Source of the DNA: a virus
IMG/VR virus record: IMGVR_UViG_3300022074_000069
Span: 1-51,281 of that record
Direction: 5' to 3' (one strand)
DNA: 51,281 nucleotides
Shown: in pieces, positions 1,632-48,237 of the stretch
How the letters are laid out: each line of letters begins with the position of its first letter
How positions within the stretch are numbered: position 1 is the stretch's first letter
Notes under the pieces: generated by a model
The model's database searches: none
The model's input: only the letters and a program-made list of their open reading frames with translations
What the model was told of the DNA's origin: nothing
Program-made: the position numbers and the translations under genes

Positions 1632-1639
1632 ACTAAATA
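1632..1639 (+). promoter_or_regulatory. Late promoter box ACTAAATA
   Basis: The box matches the T4 late consensus TATAAATA at its last six bases (TAAATA at 1634-1639). The start codon of the next gene begins at 1645, six bases after the last A. By analogy to T4 that is where transcription would begin, so the message is probably leaderless. Confidence 0.65.
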
Positions 1640-1644
1640 TATTA

Positions 1645-2016
1645 ATGCACTTAGTTCTCATAACATTACTGTTATTTGTTACTCCTTCGTATGGAGAACA
1701 GAAACAACCCAAGAACATCTTTCAATGTTTTACTTGTTTTCTTCCAAAGATATCGGATTGGTCTATTGAACAACAATATCGAAAAGGAATGAGAGAAGAC
1801 CCATACGACAGACGAAAGACTACAACGTGTCGTTTGAGTAAAAGAGTGAAAACAAAAAGTGGACAACAAGTCTGTATCTATCGTGGTGCAAATAATACCT
1901 ATACCCTACAAGTTGAAGCAAATTGTCCGAAACAATTTATTTGTCGCTATAACCCAGGCCAAGAAGAACCAAACATTGACGCAGTAATCGACTCACTTAA
2001 CAAGAGTATGAAATGA
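1645..2016 (+). CDS. Secreted six-cysteine hypothetical protein (123 aa)
   Basis: The first 18 residues form a classical signal peptide: a hydrophobic core LVLITLLLF and a likely cleavage site after PSYG. The mature part contains eight cysteines, in pairs and singles (QCFTCF, TTC, VC, NC, IC), although only the last five recur in the relatives I recall, so disulfides in the periplasm are likely. A block CIYRGANNTYTL followed by CPKQFICRYNPGQ resembles small exported proteins I recall from marine T4-like phages; no function is known. A late box abuts the start codon and no ribosome binding site is present. The 3' end overlaps the convergent glutaredoxin gene by 24 nt. Confidence 0.72.
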   Translation: MHLVLITLLLFVTPSYGEQKQPKNIFQCFTCFLPKISDWSIEQQYRKGMREDPYDRRKTTTCRLSKRVKTKSGQQVCIYRGANNTYTLQVEANCPKQFICRYNPGQEEPNIDAVIDSLNKSMK

Positions 2017-2232
2017 TTCTACTAGTTCTTTGAGTTGGTCGTACCCACCAATATGTAATTCGTTTTCATCATAGATAATCGGAAAGGTTTTATAACCTTG
2101 TCTGCGTAACCAATCCATTTCTGTCTGGTCGGTTACAAGTTTTTCCTCAAAAGGAATATCGTATTTGTTTAATAACATTTTTGCTCTTGTGCAAAAGACA
2201 CAAGCTTGTCTTGATAATATTTTAAATCGCAA
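1993..2232 (-). CDS. grx: Glutaredoxin (79 aa)
   Basis: The product has the glutaredoxin/thioredoxin fold signature: an N-terminal strand (FKILSR), the redox motif CVFC, a helix (TRAKMLLNKY), the TFPIIY segment with the cis-proline, and the C-terminal GGYDQLKELV. It would reduce disulfides using glutathione, for example for ribonucleotide reductase, or act in Fe-S transfer. I start at TTG 2232 because a GGAG site lies six bases upstream and the fold begins there. An alternative ATG at 2265 would add 11 residues encoded inside the upstream HesB gene. The pair forms a reverse-strand operon with an 11-nt overlap. Confidence 0.85.
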   Translation of the reverse strand: MRFKILSRQACVFCTRAKMLLNKYDIPFEEKLVTDQTEMDWLRRQGYKTFPIIYDENELHIGGYDQLKELVESFHTLVK

Positions 2233-2527
2233 AACTTTCTCCACATCCACATTGAGCCTTTGCATTAGGATTAATTACCTTTAAATAAGACCCACCAAAT
2301 TCTCTGACATAATCAACAGTACAACCAAGGATAAACATTTCTGCAATCTTATCGACAATCAGTATATCATCTATCAGTATACCATCTTTTTCTTCGTCAA
2401 TCAAATCCCATTTGTATTGAAAACCAGAGCACCCACCCCCTAAAACTGAAAGGTATGCGAATCGTTTCCTCTCTGATTCGGTAGTTTTCGTTAAATATTC
2501 CTTTGCACTATTAGTTAATGTTAACAT
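2222..2527 (-). CDS. HesB/IscA-like Fe-S cluster carrier (101 aa)
   Basis: The protein shows the A-type carrier signature: GGGCSGFQY at about residues 31-39 with the first cluster-binding cysteine, and CGCGESF near the C-terminus with the other two. The length is typical of the family. These proteins hold and deliver iron-sulfur clusters; in marine phages the role is unproven, although a supply for viral or host Fe-S enzymes is often suggested. It is followed by a glutaredoxin on the same strand, and glutaredoxins are known partners of A-type carriers. A late-type box lies four bases before the ATG and there is no ribosome binding site. Confidence 0.88.
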   Translation of the reverse strand: MLTLTNSAKEYLTKTTESERKRFAYLSVLGGGCSGFQYKWDLIDEEKDGILIDDILIVDKIAEMFILGCTVDYVREFGGSYLKVINPNAKAQCGCGESFAI

Positions 2528-2531
2528 CTTA

Positions 2532-2539
2532 TATTTATT
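2532..2539 (-). promoter_or_regulatory. Reverse-strand late promoter box AATAAATA
   Basis: Read on the minus strand, this is AATAAATA followed by TAAG and then the ATG of the HesB gene. The expected start point falls within one base of the initiation codon. It is the only promoter candidate I see for the HesB-glutaredoxin pair. Confidence 0.5.
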
Positions 2540-4047: not shown

Positions 4048-4076
4048 TTGACAAATAAAACGAATCAGTATATACT
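4048..4076 (+). promoter_or_regulatory. Strong sigma70-type promoter of a small RNA
   Basis: TTGACA (4048-4053), a 17-base spacer and TATACT (4071-4076) give a near-consensus promoter. Unlike the two upstream promoters it has no palindrome in the spacer. No start codon with a ribosome binding site follows before the terminator at 4132-4160. Confidence 0.9.
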
Positions 4077-4082
4077 ATAAGT

Positions 4083-4160
4083 ATAGTCAAGAGTGGGTGT
4101 CCGAAACTTGGTAATGATAAAACGAGGACTCAAGAGGAAACTTCGGTTTCCTCTTTTTTT
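4083..4160 (+). ncRNA. Predicted small noncoding RNA of about 78 nt
   Basis: Transcription from the promoter at 4048 should begin near A4083 or A4085 and end at the U-run closing at 4160. The body is not an evident reading frame: the only ATG (4114) lacks a ribosome binding site and is followed at once by a stop (ATGATAA holds TGA and TAA). A weak stem can be drawn between GTCC (4099-4102) and GGAC (4126-4129), extendable by two pairs across a bulge. The 3' half is the terminator hairpin. I do not recognise an RNA family. It could be a trans-acting RNA or simply the short product of an insulator between early and late genes. Confidence 0.7.
4132..4160 (+). terminator. Rho-independent terminator
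   Basis: The stem AAGAGGAAAC (4132-4141) pairs perfectly with GTTTCCTCTT (4146-4155) around a TTCG tetraloop and is followed by a T run to 4160. The 10-bp stem with a c(UUCG)g loop is about as strong as such signals get. It closes the early region and shields the late baseplate genes. Confidence 0.95.
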
Positions 4161-4168
4161 ATGTGCGA

Positions 4169-4176
4169 ACTAAATA
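4169..4176 (+). promoter_or_regulatory. Late promoter box ACTAAATA
   Basis: It lies just after the terminator. The last A is at 4176, and the ATG of the gp5-like gene starts six bases later at 4182, the spacing expected for transcription to start on the initiation codon. Confidence 0.7.
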
Positions 4177-4181
4177 TATTC

Positions 4182-6665
4182 ATGATGAATTACTTTCAAG
4201 GACAAGACGGATTCGTATGGTTCACAGGCGTTGTTGAGGACAGAAATGACCCAACAAAACTTGGTCGTGTACGAGTACGTTGTGTCGGTTACCACACAGA
4301 AGATAAAACAAAAATACCTACGGAAGATTTACCTTGGGCGTGGGTATTACAAACAGTTCACACACCATCAATGAATGGTATGGGTCATACTCCAGGCTTC
4401 CTTGTTGAAGGAACATGGGTAGTAGGTTTCTTTCGTGACCCAGAAATGTTACAAGAACCAATTATACTTGGTTCATTGCCTGGTGTTCCAGAAAATTTAG
4501 GTGACCCAAACAAAGGTTTCCATGACCCCAATCGCAGAAACAATGACCCAACTAAAGAGGGATATAATACTTCTGTTTATCCAAGAGAAACTGGACAACC
4601 AGATACAAATCGTCTTGCAAGAAACTTTGATTTAGACCAAACAGTTGTCGCATCTAAAAAAGCAAAAATAATAAAAAACATAGAAAAGGCGGATGGTGAA
4701 CAATATAACGAACCCTTAACATCTTACAACGCATTATATCCAAAAAACCATGTTTTTGAATCTGAGTCTGGACACATCATAGAATATGATGACTCACCAA
4801 GACATCAAAGAGTTCATCACTACCATGCGTCTGGAACATTTAATGAGATTGCAGCTAGTGGGGATAAGATTGAAAAAGTTGTGGGTGATAATTATCAACT
4901 AGTAAATGGTAGTAGTTTTACTTTTGTTAACGGACATTTGAATATAACAACAGAGGGAACTCTAAACATCAAGTGTCGTAAACTTAATTTAGAGGTATCA
5001 GAGGATTTTACGGAAGAGGTTGAACAAAATAAATCAACTCTTATAAAAGGTAATAAAACAGTTGATGTAACTGGTGAAGTATTTGAAACATTTAATTCGT
5101 CATACACACAAAGTATTCATGGTGATATAGATTTACGTTATGGTAAAGAAGATGGTAAGTTTTCAGAACATATCAAATCTGATATTACACGAAACTATAG
5201 TGCAAAGGTACAAGAATTCCTAAAAGAAACATATGAACAAAACATTACAGAGTCATCTACTATTCGTGTTGGTACAACTCTTGATATTGACACAGCAGCT
5301 TTTGATGTTGATGCTTCCTCAGTCGCATCCATAACTTCTGCAACCACAACGATTAATGGTTCAACTGCATCTAATATAAGAGGTACAACTGTAAGTGTTA
5401 ATGGTACTACTGTGGATATTGATGCAAGTAATTTTACGTTAGATGCACCAGAATCCTCTACTAATGTTGCACCTACATCACTTGGAGCAGCTGGACATGG
5501 TACAAGTCCAAGTATAGTATCGCCTGGTTCTGCTTCTGTTACTGACCCAACAGAAGTCACAGAAACAGATTTGATTGAAGTTCTAGAACCAATAATTGCT
5601 ATTTCAGAACCTAAGTCTGGAACAGTTGGTGGTGACCAAGATGATGAAGATGCAGAACCACCCAGAGGTAATGGTTCTGGTTCAGTTGGTACTGGAGGAA
5701 GAGTATCACCTCAAAAAACTAGAGCAGAAGGCGCAGTTACAACTGGAGCAAGTCAGCCTGGAAATGGTGGTCAATTACTTGCAGCCCAAAACCCCCCAGG
5801 CAATTGTAAAAGAAAAACTCTTGGTCAAGTATCTGAAAGATGGGAATCAAATGGTGACCCATCTGCAACAAATGATAGTGCAGCTGCAGATGACTTAGGT
5901 GGTTGGTCATATGGACTATATCAAATTGCAACAAAGAATGAAGCGATGAAACCTTTCCTTACATTTTGTTCGGTAAAAGAAAACGGATTTTCTGATATTC
6001 ATGATGAGTTACAAGCAGCTGGTGGTTTTTCTTCAGCCTTGCGAGGTGCTGGTGGTGGTTTTTATAATAAGTGGAAAGAACTTGCAAAAAGAGATAAAGA
6101 AAGATTCAAACAATGTCAACATGATTATATTCAAACTGTATATTACGATAGAGCAGTTGCAAAGTTTTTTGAATTTTCTGGGATTGATATTTGTGATGGA
6201 ACTCATAGTGATGGTATACAAGATGCAATCTGGAGTACAGCAGTTCAGCATGGTGCAAATACAAGCACTATAATTGATGCATTTAAAGCAACTGGAAAAG
6301 ATAAAGACACAGTTACAGATGAAGACCTTATTAATGCGATTTATGACCAAAGAGGTAGAGAAAATAAAGAAGCAGTCTTTGTTAAGAAAAGTAGTAAGAG
6401 TAAATGGTGGGGATTTCAGAACTATATACCGACAGAGGGTGGTAGACAAGGTGGAAAAGTTTTAATTTATAATAGTAAAGGAAAAGTTACTGGAACAACA
6501 CCACAACTTCATCGTTTTAGAAGTAGTTCTGGTAGAATACAAAAAGGTGTGAGAAACAGATATGTAGGTGAAAGAGCATCATGTCTTGCACTCAATAATA
6601 ATACACGTTTTAATGTAGGTTATGTTGAACCAACCGGCGGTAGCGGTGGAGGTCAAGTAGTATAA
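4182..6665 (+). CDS. gp5: Baseplate central spike / tail lysozyme, gp5-like (827 aa)
   Basis: The protein has the gp5/VgrG layout. An N-terminal OB-fold (about residues 8-105; FVWFTGVVEDRNDPTKLGRV and WAWVLQT) is followed by a beta-helix region with repeated short strands (about 200-440) and a Gly/Pro/Ser linker. A C-terminal domain (about 540-790) carries ESNGDPSATN and GGWSYGLYQIA, resembling VgrG3-type or chitosanase-like peptidoglycan hydrolases. E555 is the best catalytic candidate. In T4 the lysozyme lies between OB-fold and helix, so here it is moved to the tip side. The frame is open from ATG 4161, but the late box lies between 4161 and 4182, so I start at 4182 (a second ATG follows at 4185). 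Confidence 0.88.
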   Translation: MMNYFQGQDGFVWFTGVVEDRNDPTKLGRVRVRCVGYHTEDKTKIPTEDLPWAWVLQTVHTPSMNGMGHTPGFLVEGTWVVGFFRDPEMLQEPIILGSLPGVPENLGDPNKGFHDPNRRNNDPTKEGYNTSVYPRETGQPDTNRLARNFDLDQTVVASKKAKIIKNIEKADGEQYNEPLTSYNALYPKNHVFESESGHIIEYDDSPRHQRVHHYHASGTFNEIAASGDKIEKVVGDNYQLVNGSSFTFVNGHLNITTEGTLNIKCRKLNLEVSEDFTEEVEQNKSTLIKGNKTVDVTGEVFETFNSSYTQSIHGDIDLRYGKEDGKFSEHIKSDITRNYSAKVQEFLKETYEQNITESSTIRVGTTLDIDTAAFDVDASSVASITSATTTINGSTASNIRGTTVSVNGTTVDIDASNFTLDAPESSTNVAPTSLGAAGHGTSPSIVSPGSASVTDPTEVTETDLIEVLEPIIAISEPKSGTVGGDQDDEDAEPPRGNGSGSVGTGGRVSPQKTRAEGAVTTGASQPGNGGQLLAAQNPPGNCKRKTLGQVSERWESNGDPSATNDSAAADDLGGWSYGLYQIATKNEAMKPFLTFCSVKENGFSDIHDELQAAGGFSSALRGAGGGFYNKWKELAKRDKERFKQCQHDYIQTVYYDRAVAKFFEFSGIDICDGTHSDGIQDAIWSTAVQHGANTSTIIDAFKATGKDKDTVTDEDLINAIYDQRGRENKEAVFVKKSSKSKWWGFQNYIPTEGGRQGGKVLIYNSKGKVTGTTPQLHRFRSSSGRIQKGVRNRYVGERASCLALNNNTRFNVGYVEPTGGSGGGQVV

Positions 6666-45780: not shown

Positions 45781-46083
45781 ATGGCAAATCACACAAAAAC
45801 AGTAACACTAACAGACTTACAACAACAAATACTATCTAACGACTTGTATACAGATACAGACAACAAAGGTCTTGATGAGTGGATACAAAATGCAGTAGAT
45901 GGTAAAATAAACAACTGTTGGAAGAGGATGCAACGAGAGTGGACAGATAGGTTAATGAACGACAGTTCTTTTACTGACCCAATTCCATCTAATCAAGCAG
46001 ATTTTGTAAAACTTATCCTTGCAAGGAGTGACTACAAGAATCGTAAAGCAAGAGATGATGAAAGCAATAAAAGACCTTCATAA
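45781..46083 (+). CDS. Small conserved helical protein next to terminase (100 aa)
   Basis: A very strong ribosome binding site (AAAGGAGGT) precedes the ATG. The product has VTLTDLQQQILSNDLY, DEWIQNAVDGKINNCWKRM and LARSDYKNRKARDDES, a pattern I recall from short proteins near fibre or structural genes in many phages, of unknown role. It is mostly helical and charged. It could be a chaperone for the C1q-like head upstream or an independent virion protein. It does not resemble gp16, whose relative lies at 42184. Confidence 0.65.
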   Translation: MANHTKTVTLTDLQQQILSNDLYTDTDNKGLDEWIQNAVDGKINNCWKRMQREWTDRLMNDSSFTDPIPSNQADFVKLILARSDYKNRKARDDESNKRPS

Positions 46084-46086
46084 ATA
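46079..46086 (+). promoter_or_regulatory. Late promoter box CATAAATA
   Basis: The last A at 46086 lies six bases before A46092 of the terminase start codon, the spacing expected for transcription to begin on the ATG. No ribosome binding site is present between box and start. Confidence 0.75.
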
Positions 46087-46091
46087 TCTGA

Positions 46092-47738
46092 ATGACAGAT
46101 ATTAATCATTACCTTGGTAATCCACTCCTAAAGAAAGCAAATGTTTCGGTAGAGTGGACAAAAGACCAAATTCTTGAATACCAAAAGTGTATGCAAGACC
46201 CTCTGTATTTTTGTCAGAAATATATTAAGATTGTATCTCTGGATGAGGGTCTTGTACCTTTTGATGTATACCCATTCCAAAAAGAAATACTAGGAACGAT
46301 ACATAATAATCGTTTTACTATCTGTAAACTTCCCAGACAATCTGGTAAGACAACCACAATTATATCTTATATCTTACATTATGTCCTATTCAACGAACAG
46401 ATGAGAGTAGCGATACTTGCAAACAAAGCTGCAACTGCAAGAGATATTCTTTCACGATTACAACTTGCATATGAAAATCTACCAAAGTGGATGCAACAAG
46501 GAGTAATGTCATGGAATAAAGGTTCTCTCGATTTAGAGAATGGTTCTCGTATCGTTGCATCTTCTACATCTTCAAGTGCAGTTCGTGGTGGTTCTTACAA
46601 CATGATATTCTTGGATGAGTTTGCGTTTGTTCCACATAATGTTGCAGAGGACTTTTTTAGTTCTGTGTATCCTACAATTTCATCTGGTAAAAATACAAAG
46701 GTTGTGATAGTATCAACACCAAACGGAATGAATCTATTTTATAAATTGTGGTCTGATGCAGAGAATGGACGTAACTCTTATAATCCAATAGAAGTCCACT
46801 GGAGTGAGATTCCAGGCAGGGATGAAAAATGGAAAGTAGAAACAATTTCAAATACATCACAAGAACAATTTAATCGTGAATTTGAGTGTGAATTCTTAGG
46901 GTCTATTAATACTCTCATCCATCCAACTAAAATTAAGTCAATGGTATTTGATGAACCTATACAAACAAATGCTGGTCTAGACTTATACAAGAAACCAGAA
47001 AGTAATAGAACATACACTATTGTGTGTGATGTTGCAAGAGGAACAGAACAAGACTATTCTGCATTTCTTATATTTGATGTATCGGAAGTTCCCTATCGTA
47101 TTGTTGCGAAATATCGTAATAACGAAATTAAACCTTTACTATTTCCAAACGTAATTCATGACGTTGCAAAAGCATATAATAACGCATATGTAATGATTGA
47201 AGTAAATGATATTGGTGAACAAGTTGCGACTGCATTGCAGTATGACTTAGAGTATGATAATCTTGTTATGGCTTCAATGAGAGGTCGTGCTGGTCAGATA
47301 CTTGGTTCTGGGTTCTCTGGGGGTAAAGTACAGTTAGGTGTAAGAACAACTAAAGCAGTAAAGATGTTGGGGTGTTCTAATCTAAAACAACTTATAGAAA
47401 CAGAAAAACTAATTATAAATGATATTCAATTAATCCAAGAATTTTCTACTTTTGTTAAACATGGTCAGTCGTTTCAAGCAGAAGAAGGACACACAGATGA
47501 CCTTGCAATGTGTTGTGTATTATTTGCATGGATGACAAACCAGACATATTTCAAAGAACTTACAAATGTAGATATACGAGAAAGAATGTTCTTAGAACAA
47601 CAAGACCAATTAGAACAAGATATGGCTCCATTTGGTTTTATGGATAATGGTATTGATGACCCACTTGGAGAAACAGTTATAGATGAATATGGTACAAGAT
47701 GGAGTCCAGTAGTAAGAGATTATGACTCAAGTTGGTAG
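46092..47738 (+). CDS. gp17: Large terminase subunit, gp17-like (548 aa)
   Basis: All elements of a packaging motor are visible. Walker A is PRQSGKTT at residues 81-88 and Walker B is MIFLDEFAFV with D175-E176, followed by the VVIVSTPNG coupling motif. The RNase H-like nuclease domain has acidic residues D313 (VCDVARG), E370 (MIEVND) and D469/D470 (HTDDLAM). The length fits marine T4-like phages and is shorter than T4 gp17. It translocates DNA into the prohead and cuts it at the end. The message is predicted to be leaderless, and the 3' end overlaps a DUF1289 gene by 17 nt. Confidence 0.97.
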   Translation: MTDINHYLGNPLLKKANVSVEWTKDQILEYQKCMQDPLYFCQKYIKIVSLDEGLVPFDVYPFQKEILGTIHNNRFTICKLPRQSGKTTTIISYILHYVLFNEQMRVAILANKAATARDILSRLQLAYENLPKWMQQGVMSWNKGSLDLENGSRIVASSTSSSAVRGGSYNMIFLDEFAFVPHNVAEDFFSSVYPTISSGKNTKVVIVSTPNGMNLFYKLWSDAENGRNSYNPIEVHWSEIPGRDEKWKVETISNTSQEQFNREFECEFLGSINTLIHPTKIKSMVFDEPIQTNAGLDLYKKPESNRTYTIVCDVARGTEQDYSAFLIFDVSEVPYRIVAKYRNNEIKPLLFPNVIHDVAKAYNNAYVMIEVNDIGEQVATALQYDLEYDNLVMASMRGRAGQILGSGFSGGKVQLGVRTTKAVKMLGCSNLKQLIETEKLIINDIQLIQEFSTFVKHGQSFQAEEGHTDDLAMCCVLFAWMTNQTYFKELTNVDIRERMFLEQQDQLEQDMAPFGFMDNGIDDPLGETVIDEYGTRWSPVVRDYDSSW

Positions 47739-47895
47739 TCCATGTCTAAAAATATGCACACTAGAAGATGGTATGTGCATAGGATGTTTTAGAACTCAGG
47801 ACGAAATCAGGGAATGGATAATTTACACAGACGAACAAAAAAGAGTAGTATTAGAGAAACTAGAAGAACGCAAAATACTACATAATATCAATTAA
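47722..47895 (+). CDS. DUF1289-family Cys-rich protein (57 aa)
   Basis: The frame starts at ATG 47722 inside the terminase gene and ends at TAA 47893-47895. The product matches the DUF1289 pattern closely: SPCLKICTLEDGMCIGCFRT, then DEIREWIIYTDEQKR. The four cysteines C8, C12, C19 and C22 would bind zinc or an iron-sulfur cluster. The family is widespread in proteobacteria with no proven function. Its last 18 nt overlap the convergent HNH-like gene. At 57 residues it is easily missed by length cut-offs. Confidence 0.85.
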   Translation: MTQVGSPCLKICTLEDGMCIGCFRTQDEIREWIIYTDEQKRVVLEKLEERKILHNIN

Positions 47896-48174
47896 ATCAT
47901 TTTGGTATTTAATAAAACAGTTAGAACAAACTATCTTAGAGTTTTCTATTAGTTCGACAACTTCTTGTCTGGACTGTTCATTTAGTCCTAATCTCTTAGA
48001 TTTATATCGAATTAGTTTATCATGGGGGTAAAATTTAAGACACATAGTTTCACTTTCATTACAACAAACACATGATTTGTTAGCTAGGTATTCATTTACC
48101 CAGATAATTCTCTTATTGTAATGTCTTTTAGAAACTTCTTTGATAGTTTTCTTATATCTGTTATAAAAACTCAT
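47878..48174 (-). CDS. Divergent HNH-endonuclease-like protein (98 aa)
   Basis: The frame is open to 48291, but a perfect TATAAATA box lies at 48180-48187 and the ATG at 48174 has the leaderless spacing, so I start there. The product has a basic N-terminus (YKKTIKEVSKRHYNKR), a CVCC knuckle (C35, C38), LKFYPHDK and a second knuckle CSNC (C83, C86). This resembles stand-alone HNH homing nucleases with two CxxC pairs. The usual FHH and C-H-x3-H residues are replaced (FYP, CFIKYQ), so activity is doubtful. It sits between terminase and sheath on the opposite strand. Confidence 0.7.
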   Translation of the reverse strand: MSFYNRYKKTIKEVSKRHYNKRIIWVNEYLANKSCVCCNESETMCLKFYPHDKLIRYKSKRLGLNEQSRQEVVELIENSKIVCSNCFIKYQNDLIDIM

Positions 48175-48179
48175 GCACT

Positions 48180-48187
48180 TATTTATA
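48180..48187 (-). promoter_or_regulatory. Reverse-strand late promoter box TATAAATA
   Basis: On the minus strand the perfect consensus is followed by AGTGC and then ATG 48174. This is exactly the five-base gap seen at 1639, 4176 and 46086. Confidence 0.75.
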
Positions 48188-48229
48188 GATTCTAGTGCAT
48201 ATAAAAATCGGTTTTGGAAACTTAAATTT

Positions 48230-48237
48230 ACTAAATA
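48230..48237 (+). promoter_or_regulatory. Late promoter box ACTAAATA
   Basis: It lies 42 bases before the sheath start at 48280, with an AATAAGGAGAAA ribosome binding site between. This gives a short normal leader for the most abundant tail protein. Confidence 0.75.

Follow-up and report, generated by a model that had tools for sequence, protein, structure and literature searches.

In a group of T4-like marine phages, the late box TAAATA stands exactly five bases before the ATG of a set of genes, an arrangement noted N5 below. The box, its spacing, their conservation, an initiator-like base pattern, the lack of an SD sequence and the presence of gp55 homologues in relatives are directly observed. 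We read the N5 boxes as T4-type late promoters with position +1 at the A of the ATG, which would create a class of leaderless late mRNAs beside an SD-led class, and we give this reading a probability of about 0.88. The actual 5' ends and the translation route are inferred, the accessible material containing no transcript 5'-end data for these phages. The DNA analysed (the window) is a 51-kb fragment of 51,281 nucleotides from a T4-like marine phage and constitutes its whole record. Its terminase shares 80% identity with its counterpart in Methylophilales phage Melnitz and 65-67% with those of Pelagibacter phages Mosig and HTVC008M.

In the mechanism that we propose, host RNA polymerase carrying the phage late sigma factor gp55 would read the TAAATA boxes located five bases before ATG, and transcription would begin at the A of that ATG or at most some 3 nt away from it. 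Because roughly one turn of the helix separates the T4 late box from the start site downstream of it (PMC2988020), the N5 placement predicts +1 at the A of the ATG. The box would then occupy the position of the SD sequence, leaving late mRNAs without an SD leader. Translation would follow the leaderless route known from bacteria, probably by direct binding of 70S or initiator-tRNA-loaded ribosomes to the 5' AUG. The SD-led late messages would make up the other class, with their box 16-40 nt upstream.

Late boxes of the window

The four N5 sites listed by the sequence-only reading were all recovered, at 1634-1647, 4171-4184 and 46081-46094 on the plus strand and at 48172-48185 on the minus strand, as was the four-base spacing before HesB (2537-2525). 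The features concerned are these:

1634..1639 (+), late box CTAAATA; spacer TATTA, then ATG of the secreted-protein gene
1645..2016 (+), small predicted secreted protein, possible leaderless gene, unconfirmed
2222..2527 (-), HesB/Fe-S_biosyn gene (Pfam PF01521)
2532..2537 (-), TAAATA four bases before the HesB ATG; doubtful member
4133..4160 (+), hairpin and T-run resembling an intrinsic terminator, just upstream of the gp5 late box (direct sequence reading)
4171..4176 (+), late box CTAAATA; spacer TATTC (N5), then ATG of the gp5-like gene
4182..6665 (+), gp5-like baseplate hub/tail lysozyme gene, predicted leaderless (PHROG 430, Pfam Gp5_OB)
46081..46086 (+), late box ATAAATA; spacer TCTGA, then ATG of the large terminase
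46092..47738 (+), large terminase, gp17-like (PHROG 2, Pfam Terminase_6N/6C)
47878..48174 (-), 98-aa gene with a CxxC...CxNC motif, predicted leaderless
48180..48185 (-), late box (TATAAATA, core TAAATA); spacer AGTGC, then ATG of the 98-aa gene
48232..48237 (+), late box 42 nt upstream of tail sheath gp18, AGGAG present; example of the SD-led class

Taken alone, the window is weak evidence and no proof. TAAATA is not over-represented in it (61 occurrences vs 71.5 expected). Its N5 matches number five, for a shuffle mean of 1.56 (some 1.6 expected), and at least five were reached in 3 of 100 shuffles; this 3% is mildly unusual and leaves room for chance in an AT-rich genome. The earlier argument that exact repetition of the spacing speaks against chance was therefore weak within the window, and it is the relatives that bore it out: permuted hexamers, other spacings, the reversed pattern and an N6 double pattern all remain at background. 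Chance is refuted by these comparative data and keeps only a negligible weight, and the relatives make the N5 class compelling as far as sequence comparison goes. The fifth match (47898-47911, minus strand) lies within the minus-strand gene, not at a gene start, and was dropped as intragenic and fortuitous. Two cases without any spacer (27364 and 45019) were set aside as well, the box there being a stop codon followed by ATAATG and not a promoter spacing. In HTVC008M and Melnitz, the gene starts as published fall on the N5 ATGs.

That none of the five genes has a ribosome binding site holds for the secreted-protein, gp5, terminase (terL) and 98-aa genes, where the longest anti-SD match found is only 3-4 nt long and misplaced; for HesB it is open to doubt, as an AGGGG stands 13 nt ahead of the ATG. 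The existence of other late genes with a box farther upstream and an SD was confirmed: the window has about a dozen, with 12-57 bases between box and ATG, mostly followed by an AGGA/AGGAG-type sequence.

Individual genes among relatives

When the spacing was compared among relatives, the 98-aa and gp5 genes kept N5, the picture was mixed for terL, and the relatives of the secreted-protein and HesB genes did not follow. Judged from the sequence evidence, support is strong for the first two and moderate for TerL, while HesB is doubtful, the secreted protein having no informative close relative.

For the 98-aa gene, the box and the exact five-base spacing are kept in 44 of 44 distinct upstream sequences, a set that includes Melnitz and reaches relatives with as little as about 50% identity in the protein. 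The spacer bases vary freely among them; the box has the form TATAAATA in 41 of them and CATAAATA in the other 3. The gene stands by itself, opposed in direction to its neighbours. Its previous label as 'HNH-like' could not be upheld, as no HNH family or fold match was obtained: the protein has no PHROG or Pfam match above cut-off and no PDB sequence or fold match, and an HNH fold was rejected after a structural model (pLDDT 78) remained without a match, leaving just the CxxC...CxNC pattern. As a separate observation, a TTTTTATATG block (CATATAAAAA on the plus strand), nearly invariant in the 44 relatives, is located some 20 nt upstream of the box, in the window at about -33 to -24 from the start at 48174 (roughly 48198-48207). 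Possibly it serves tail sheath gp18 as a late-type box in the divergent direction.

The gp5 gene has N5 in eight cases out of eight, namely the window and each of the seven relatives whose upstream DNA could be read. The spacers differ (TATTC, TACGC, AGTTT, ATCAC, ATCGC, ACTCT), and in one relative (L088) the spacing is kept though the DNA farther upstream is unrelated. Homologues begin at the N5 ATG (4182) despite an in-frame ATG located 21 nt upstream in the window (4161), and because of this alignment we take 4182, not 4161, as the true start of gp5. Automated calling would place it at 4161, with 7 extra codons overlapping the promoter. We further note a sigma70-like promoter, TTGACA-N17-TATACT, at 4048-4076, just before the hairpin upstream of gp5, which may drive a short RNA ending near 4160.

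Among 56 distinct terL upstreams, 22 have N5, 11 N8, 3 a box at 36 and 20 no box, and the upstream neighbour is often swapped among relatives. The N8 starts read TAAATA-NNNNN-GTT-ATG, that is, a 3-nt leader with a purine at base 6 after the box. The window's own spacers before terL and the secreted-protein gene have A as their last base instead of a pyrimidine, so that transcription of these two genes may start 1-2 nt earlier; the TerL message is predicted to be leaderless or to have a leader of 1-2 nt. It is with terL that another explanation finds its support. The genes might be translated from longer transcripts that begin at promoters farther upstream, through read-through and translational coupling, with the box either incidental or an A/U-rich ribosome site: in the window, the TAA of the terL box also ends the preceding ORF, and a box is often missing at terL. 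However, the minus-strand gene stands alone, gp5 lies behind a terminator-like hairpin, some divergent start codons are only 26 bp apart, and coupling gives no reason for an exact spacing or for the pyrimidine at -1 described below. We consider this explanation improbable and retain that of late promoters reaching the start codon.

The two remaining genes are less telling. No box was found near the start of the secreted-protein gene in ten relatives of 45-60% identity. The N4 arrangement of HesB recurs in one relative (L176), where, as in the window, the box lies between a displaced AGGGG/AGAGGA and the ATG, and seven others (L177-L182, L223) have the box about 20 nt upstream together with a well-placed AGGAG. 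Since its relatives are SD-led in this way, HesB is doubtful as a full member of the leaderless class; on such alignments it could have turned leaderless recently, or the arrangement could mean nothing.

Spacing classes, start marks and breadth

Spacing was counted in a pooled set made of the window, Melnitz, Mosig and HTVC008M, for ORFs of at least 80 aa, with k the number of bases between box and ATG. Twenty-four genes fall at k=5, against 0-4 at each of k=1-4 and 6-11 (none at 3, 6 and 7, four at 8), and a broad second mode begins at k=16. Permuted hexamers not overlapping the box gave 0-3 at k=5 in the same set; given a mean of 1.5, the Poisson probability of 24 is about 6e-21. All 24 start codons are ATG, with no GTG or TTG. 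This avoidance was dropped as proof of leaderlessness because it does not discriminate: a distant phage discussed below (G011) has three GTG, and SD-led genes favour ATG too. In HTVC008M, N5 genes encode phytanoyl-CoA dioxygenase, CsgF, a cyclase, the tape measure, gp2, gp4, a tube-associated baseplate protein, gp25, a fibre-type protein, an 85-aa protein and a tail-tube-like protein. The abundant gp18, gp19, gp20 and gp23 of this phage are SD-led, whereas gp2, gp4, gp25 and the tape measure are N5, which fits the idea that leaderless messages serve low-copy proteins. This is suggestive only, any role in copy number being inferred.

Two base preferences accompany the box. The base before the ATG is C or T in 148 of 148 distinct N5 genes from three families, where positions -2 to -5 have a pyrimidine in only 34-45%; in two distant phages, it is a pyrimidine in 28/33 and 33/33 N5 genes. 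Base 6 after the box, which is the A of the ATG in N5 genes, is a purine in the SD-led late genes of the window's clade (47/54, 87%), of cyanophages (30/34, 88%) and of T4 (19/26, 73%). The N8 starts of Mosig and HTVC008M also carry A or G there, with 3-nt leaders such as GTT or ATT. To be sure, the purine peak of SD-led genes in the window's clade is partly confounded by the purine-rich SD from base 8 on. Read as sequence patterns, the -1 pyrimidine and the base-6 purine are marks of promoter initiation, not of translation, and in SD-led genes the latter would mark the start point independently of the N5 genes, with no mapped 5' ends. The proposal that the box is placed so that transcription starts on the start codon finds support in all this, its 5' ends remaining inferred.

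The box might instead be the -10 element of a host sigma70 promoter, the genes being leaderless and yet of early or housekeeping type. TATAAA is close to TATAAT, and a -10 at a comparable distance from the start is common among bacterial leaderless genes. Against this, no positional signal of a -35 element appears upstream of 90 N5 genes (29/90 vs 21.5 +/- 4.1 shuffled), most recognisable N5 genes are virion or packaging genes, SD-led late genes use the same box, and gp55 is encoded; we hold a sigma70 origin to be very unlikely. For late promoters proper, gp55 homologues were found in Melnitz, Mosig, HTVC008M and four further phages (G014, G011, G008, G006). The window, a fragment, is not shown to encode gp55, and this evidence comes from its relatives.

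The arrangement extends well beyond the window. Homologues of gp2, the DNA end protector, have 53 distinct upstreams in IMG/VR, 41 with N5, 6 with N6, 3 with N7, 3 with N8 and none otherwise, and among 64 tail-tube-like homologues 56 have N5, 2 N7 and 6 no box, many having a terminator hairpin directly before them. The divergent gp2 and gp4 of HTVC008M have 26 bp between their start codons, CAT-GTTAC-TATTTATATCTAAATA-AGGAT-ATG. The general form with two back-to-back boxes, CAT-N5-TATTTA-N4-TAAATA-N5-ATG, is present in 82 IMG/VR contigs, of which 64 carry ORFs of at least 60 aa both ways (41 distinct sequences), against 14 contigs, 3 with ORFs both ways, for an N6/N6 control. By their sequence, these 26-bp pairs have no room for leaders. 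Two phages far from the window, with distant T4-type terminases and gp55-like proteins (G006, 517 kb, also with gp23; G011, 126 kb), contain 56 and 40 raw N5-ATG matches; the reversed pattern gives 3 and 4. After ORF filtering, 33 remain in G011 and 33 in a sampled 260 kb of G006, and only 10 of 144 long ORFs of G011 have an SD core.

A leaderless class beside an SD-led one passes every sequence test available, leaderless mRNA being without experimental proof. It is supported by a spacing kept while spacers change, by the bimodal spacing, by the -1 pyrimidine and base-6 purine, and by 26-bp pairs without room for leaders. As a side observation, ribosomal protein bS21 is often encoded by phages with the leaderless-type class (Melnitz, Mosig, HTVC008M, G014, G006, G009), in 3/3 complete ones vs 0/7 for T4, Syn9, KVP40, P-SSM2, S-PM2, P-SSM4 and S-H38. 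This protein, near the anti-SD, could bias initiation, but kinship among the three complete phages is left uncorrected in this correlation. A wider reading remains tentative, and we would not lean on it: a large share of aquatic T4-like phages, from those of SAR11/OM43 to a 517-kb jumbo phage, would run a leaderless late programme in which many virion genes begin at position +1 of their promoter, frequently from double promoters that span 26 bp and work in both directions, with the phage's own bS21 perhaps tuning ribosomes toward these messages and leaderlessness perhaps keeping low-copy virion parts low.

Late promoters and leaderless genes in known systems

T4 late transcription is a textbook system, with late messages that have SD leaders. 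Were a leaderless class to run through a whole clade, promoter position alone would decide the translation mode of a late gene. Start codons would be better annotated (gp5 being 7 codons shorter than the longest ORF), 5' ends could be predicted for uncultured phages, and a shift of ribosomes toward leaderless mRNAs by such phages would become testable. Leaderless mRNAs and T4 late promoters are known separately; their combination in T4-like phages appears new, as no report joining the two was found in the open-access literature, subscription papers being outside our scope. The Melnitz paper lists 15 late promoters, and 'leaderless' occurs in its text only within a reference title.

The late promoters of T4 itself (gp55/gp33/gp45-dependent, TATAAATA) share the box, the predicted start distance and the base-6 purine preference, and gp55 homologues exist in the window's relatives. 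T4 differs in that its box is mostly 12-30 nt before the ATG with an SD in between, and it has no credible N5 gene of at least 80 aa. The NATAAATA late promoters of cyanophages S-PM2 and Syn9 (PMC2984593) have the same motif in the same virus family, but with SD-led spacing. Raw N5 matches are at or near the reversed-pattern control in T4, KVP40, P-SSM2, S-PM2, P-SSM4, S-H38 and Syn9, so that N5 is not a general property of T4-type phages. With the same 80-aa threshold, Syn9, like T4, has no N5 gene and P-SSM4 and S-H38 have one or two. These rare exceptions are gp4 of S-H38 and the plastoquinol terminal oxidase (PTOX) gene of P-SSM4, the latter with TATAAATA-N5-ATG at 107303-107318, possibly a rare leaderless auxiliary gene in a cyanophage.

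Farther away, the late promoters of phiKZ (TATG, with G as the start point; PMC5312081) are likewise phage late promoters with a very short spacing to the start. They differ by their motif and by a phage-encoded multisubunit RNA polymerase, and AR9, of the same group, has leaders of 26-491 nt. Bacterial leaderless genes, for example in Mycobacterium (PMC3898074, PMC4633059), likewise have the promoter core in place of the SD region and +1 at the start codon. Unlike them, the class described here would rest on a phage late sigma promoter type and belong to the late virion programme.
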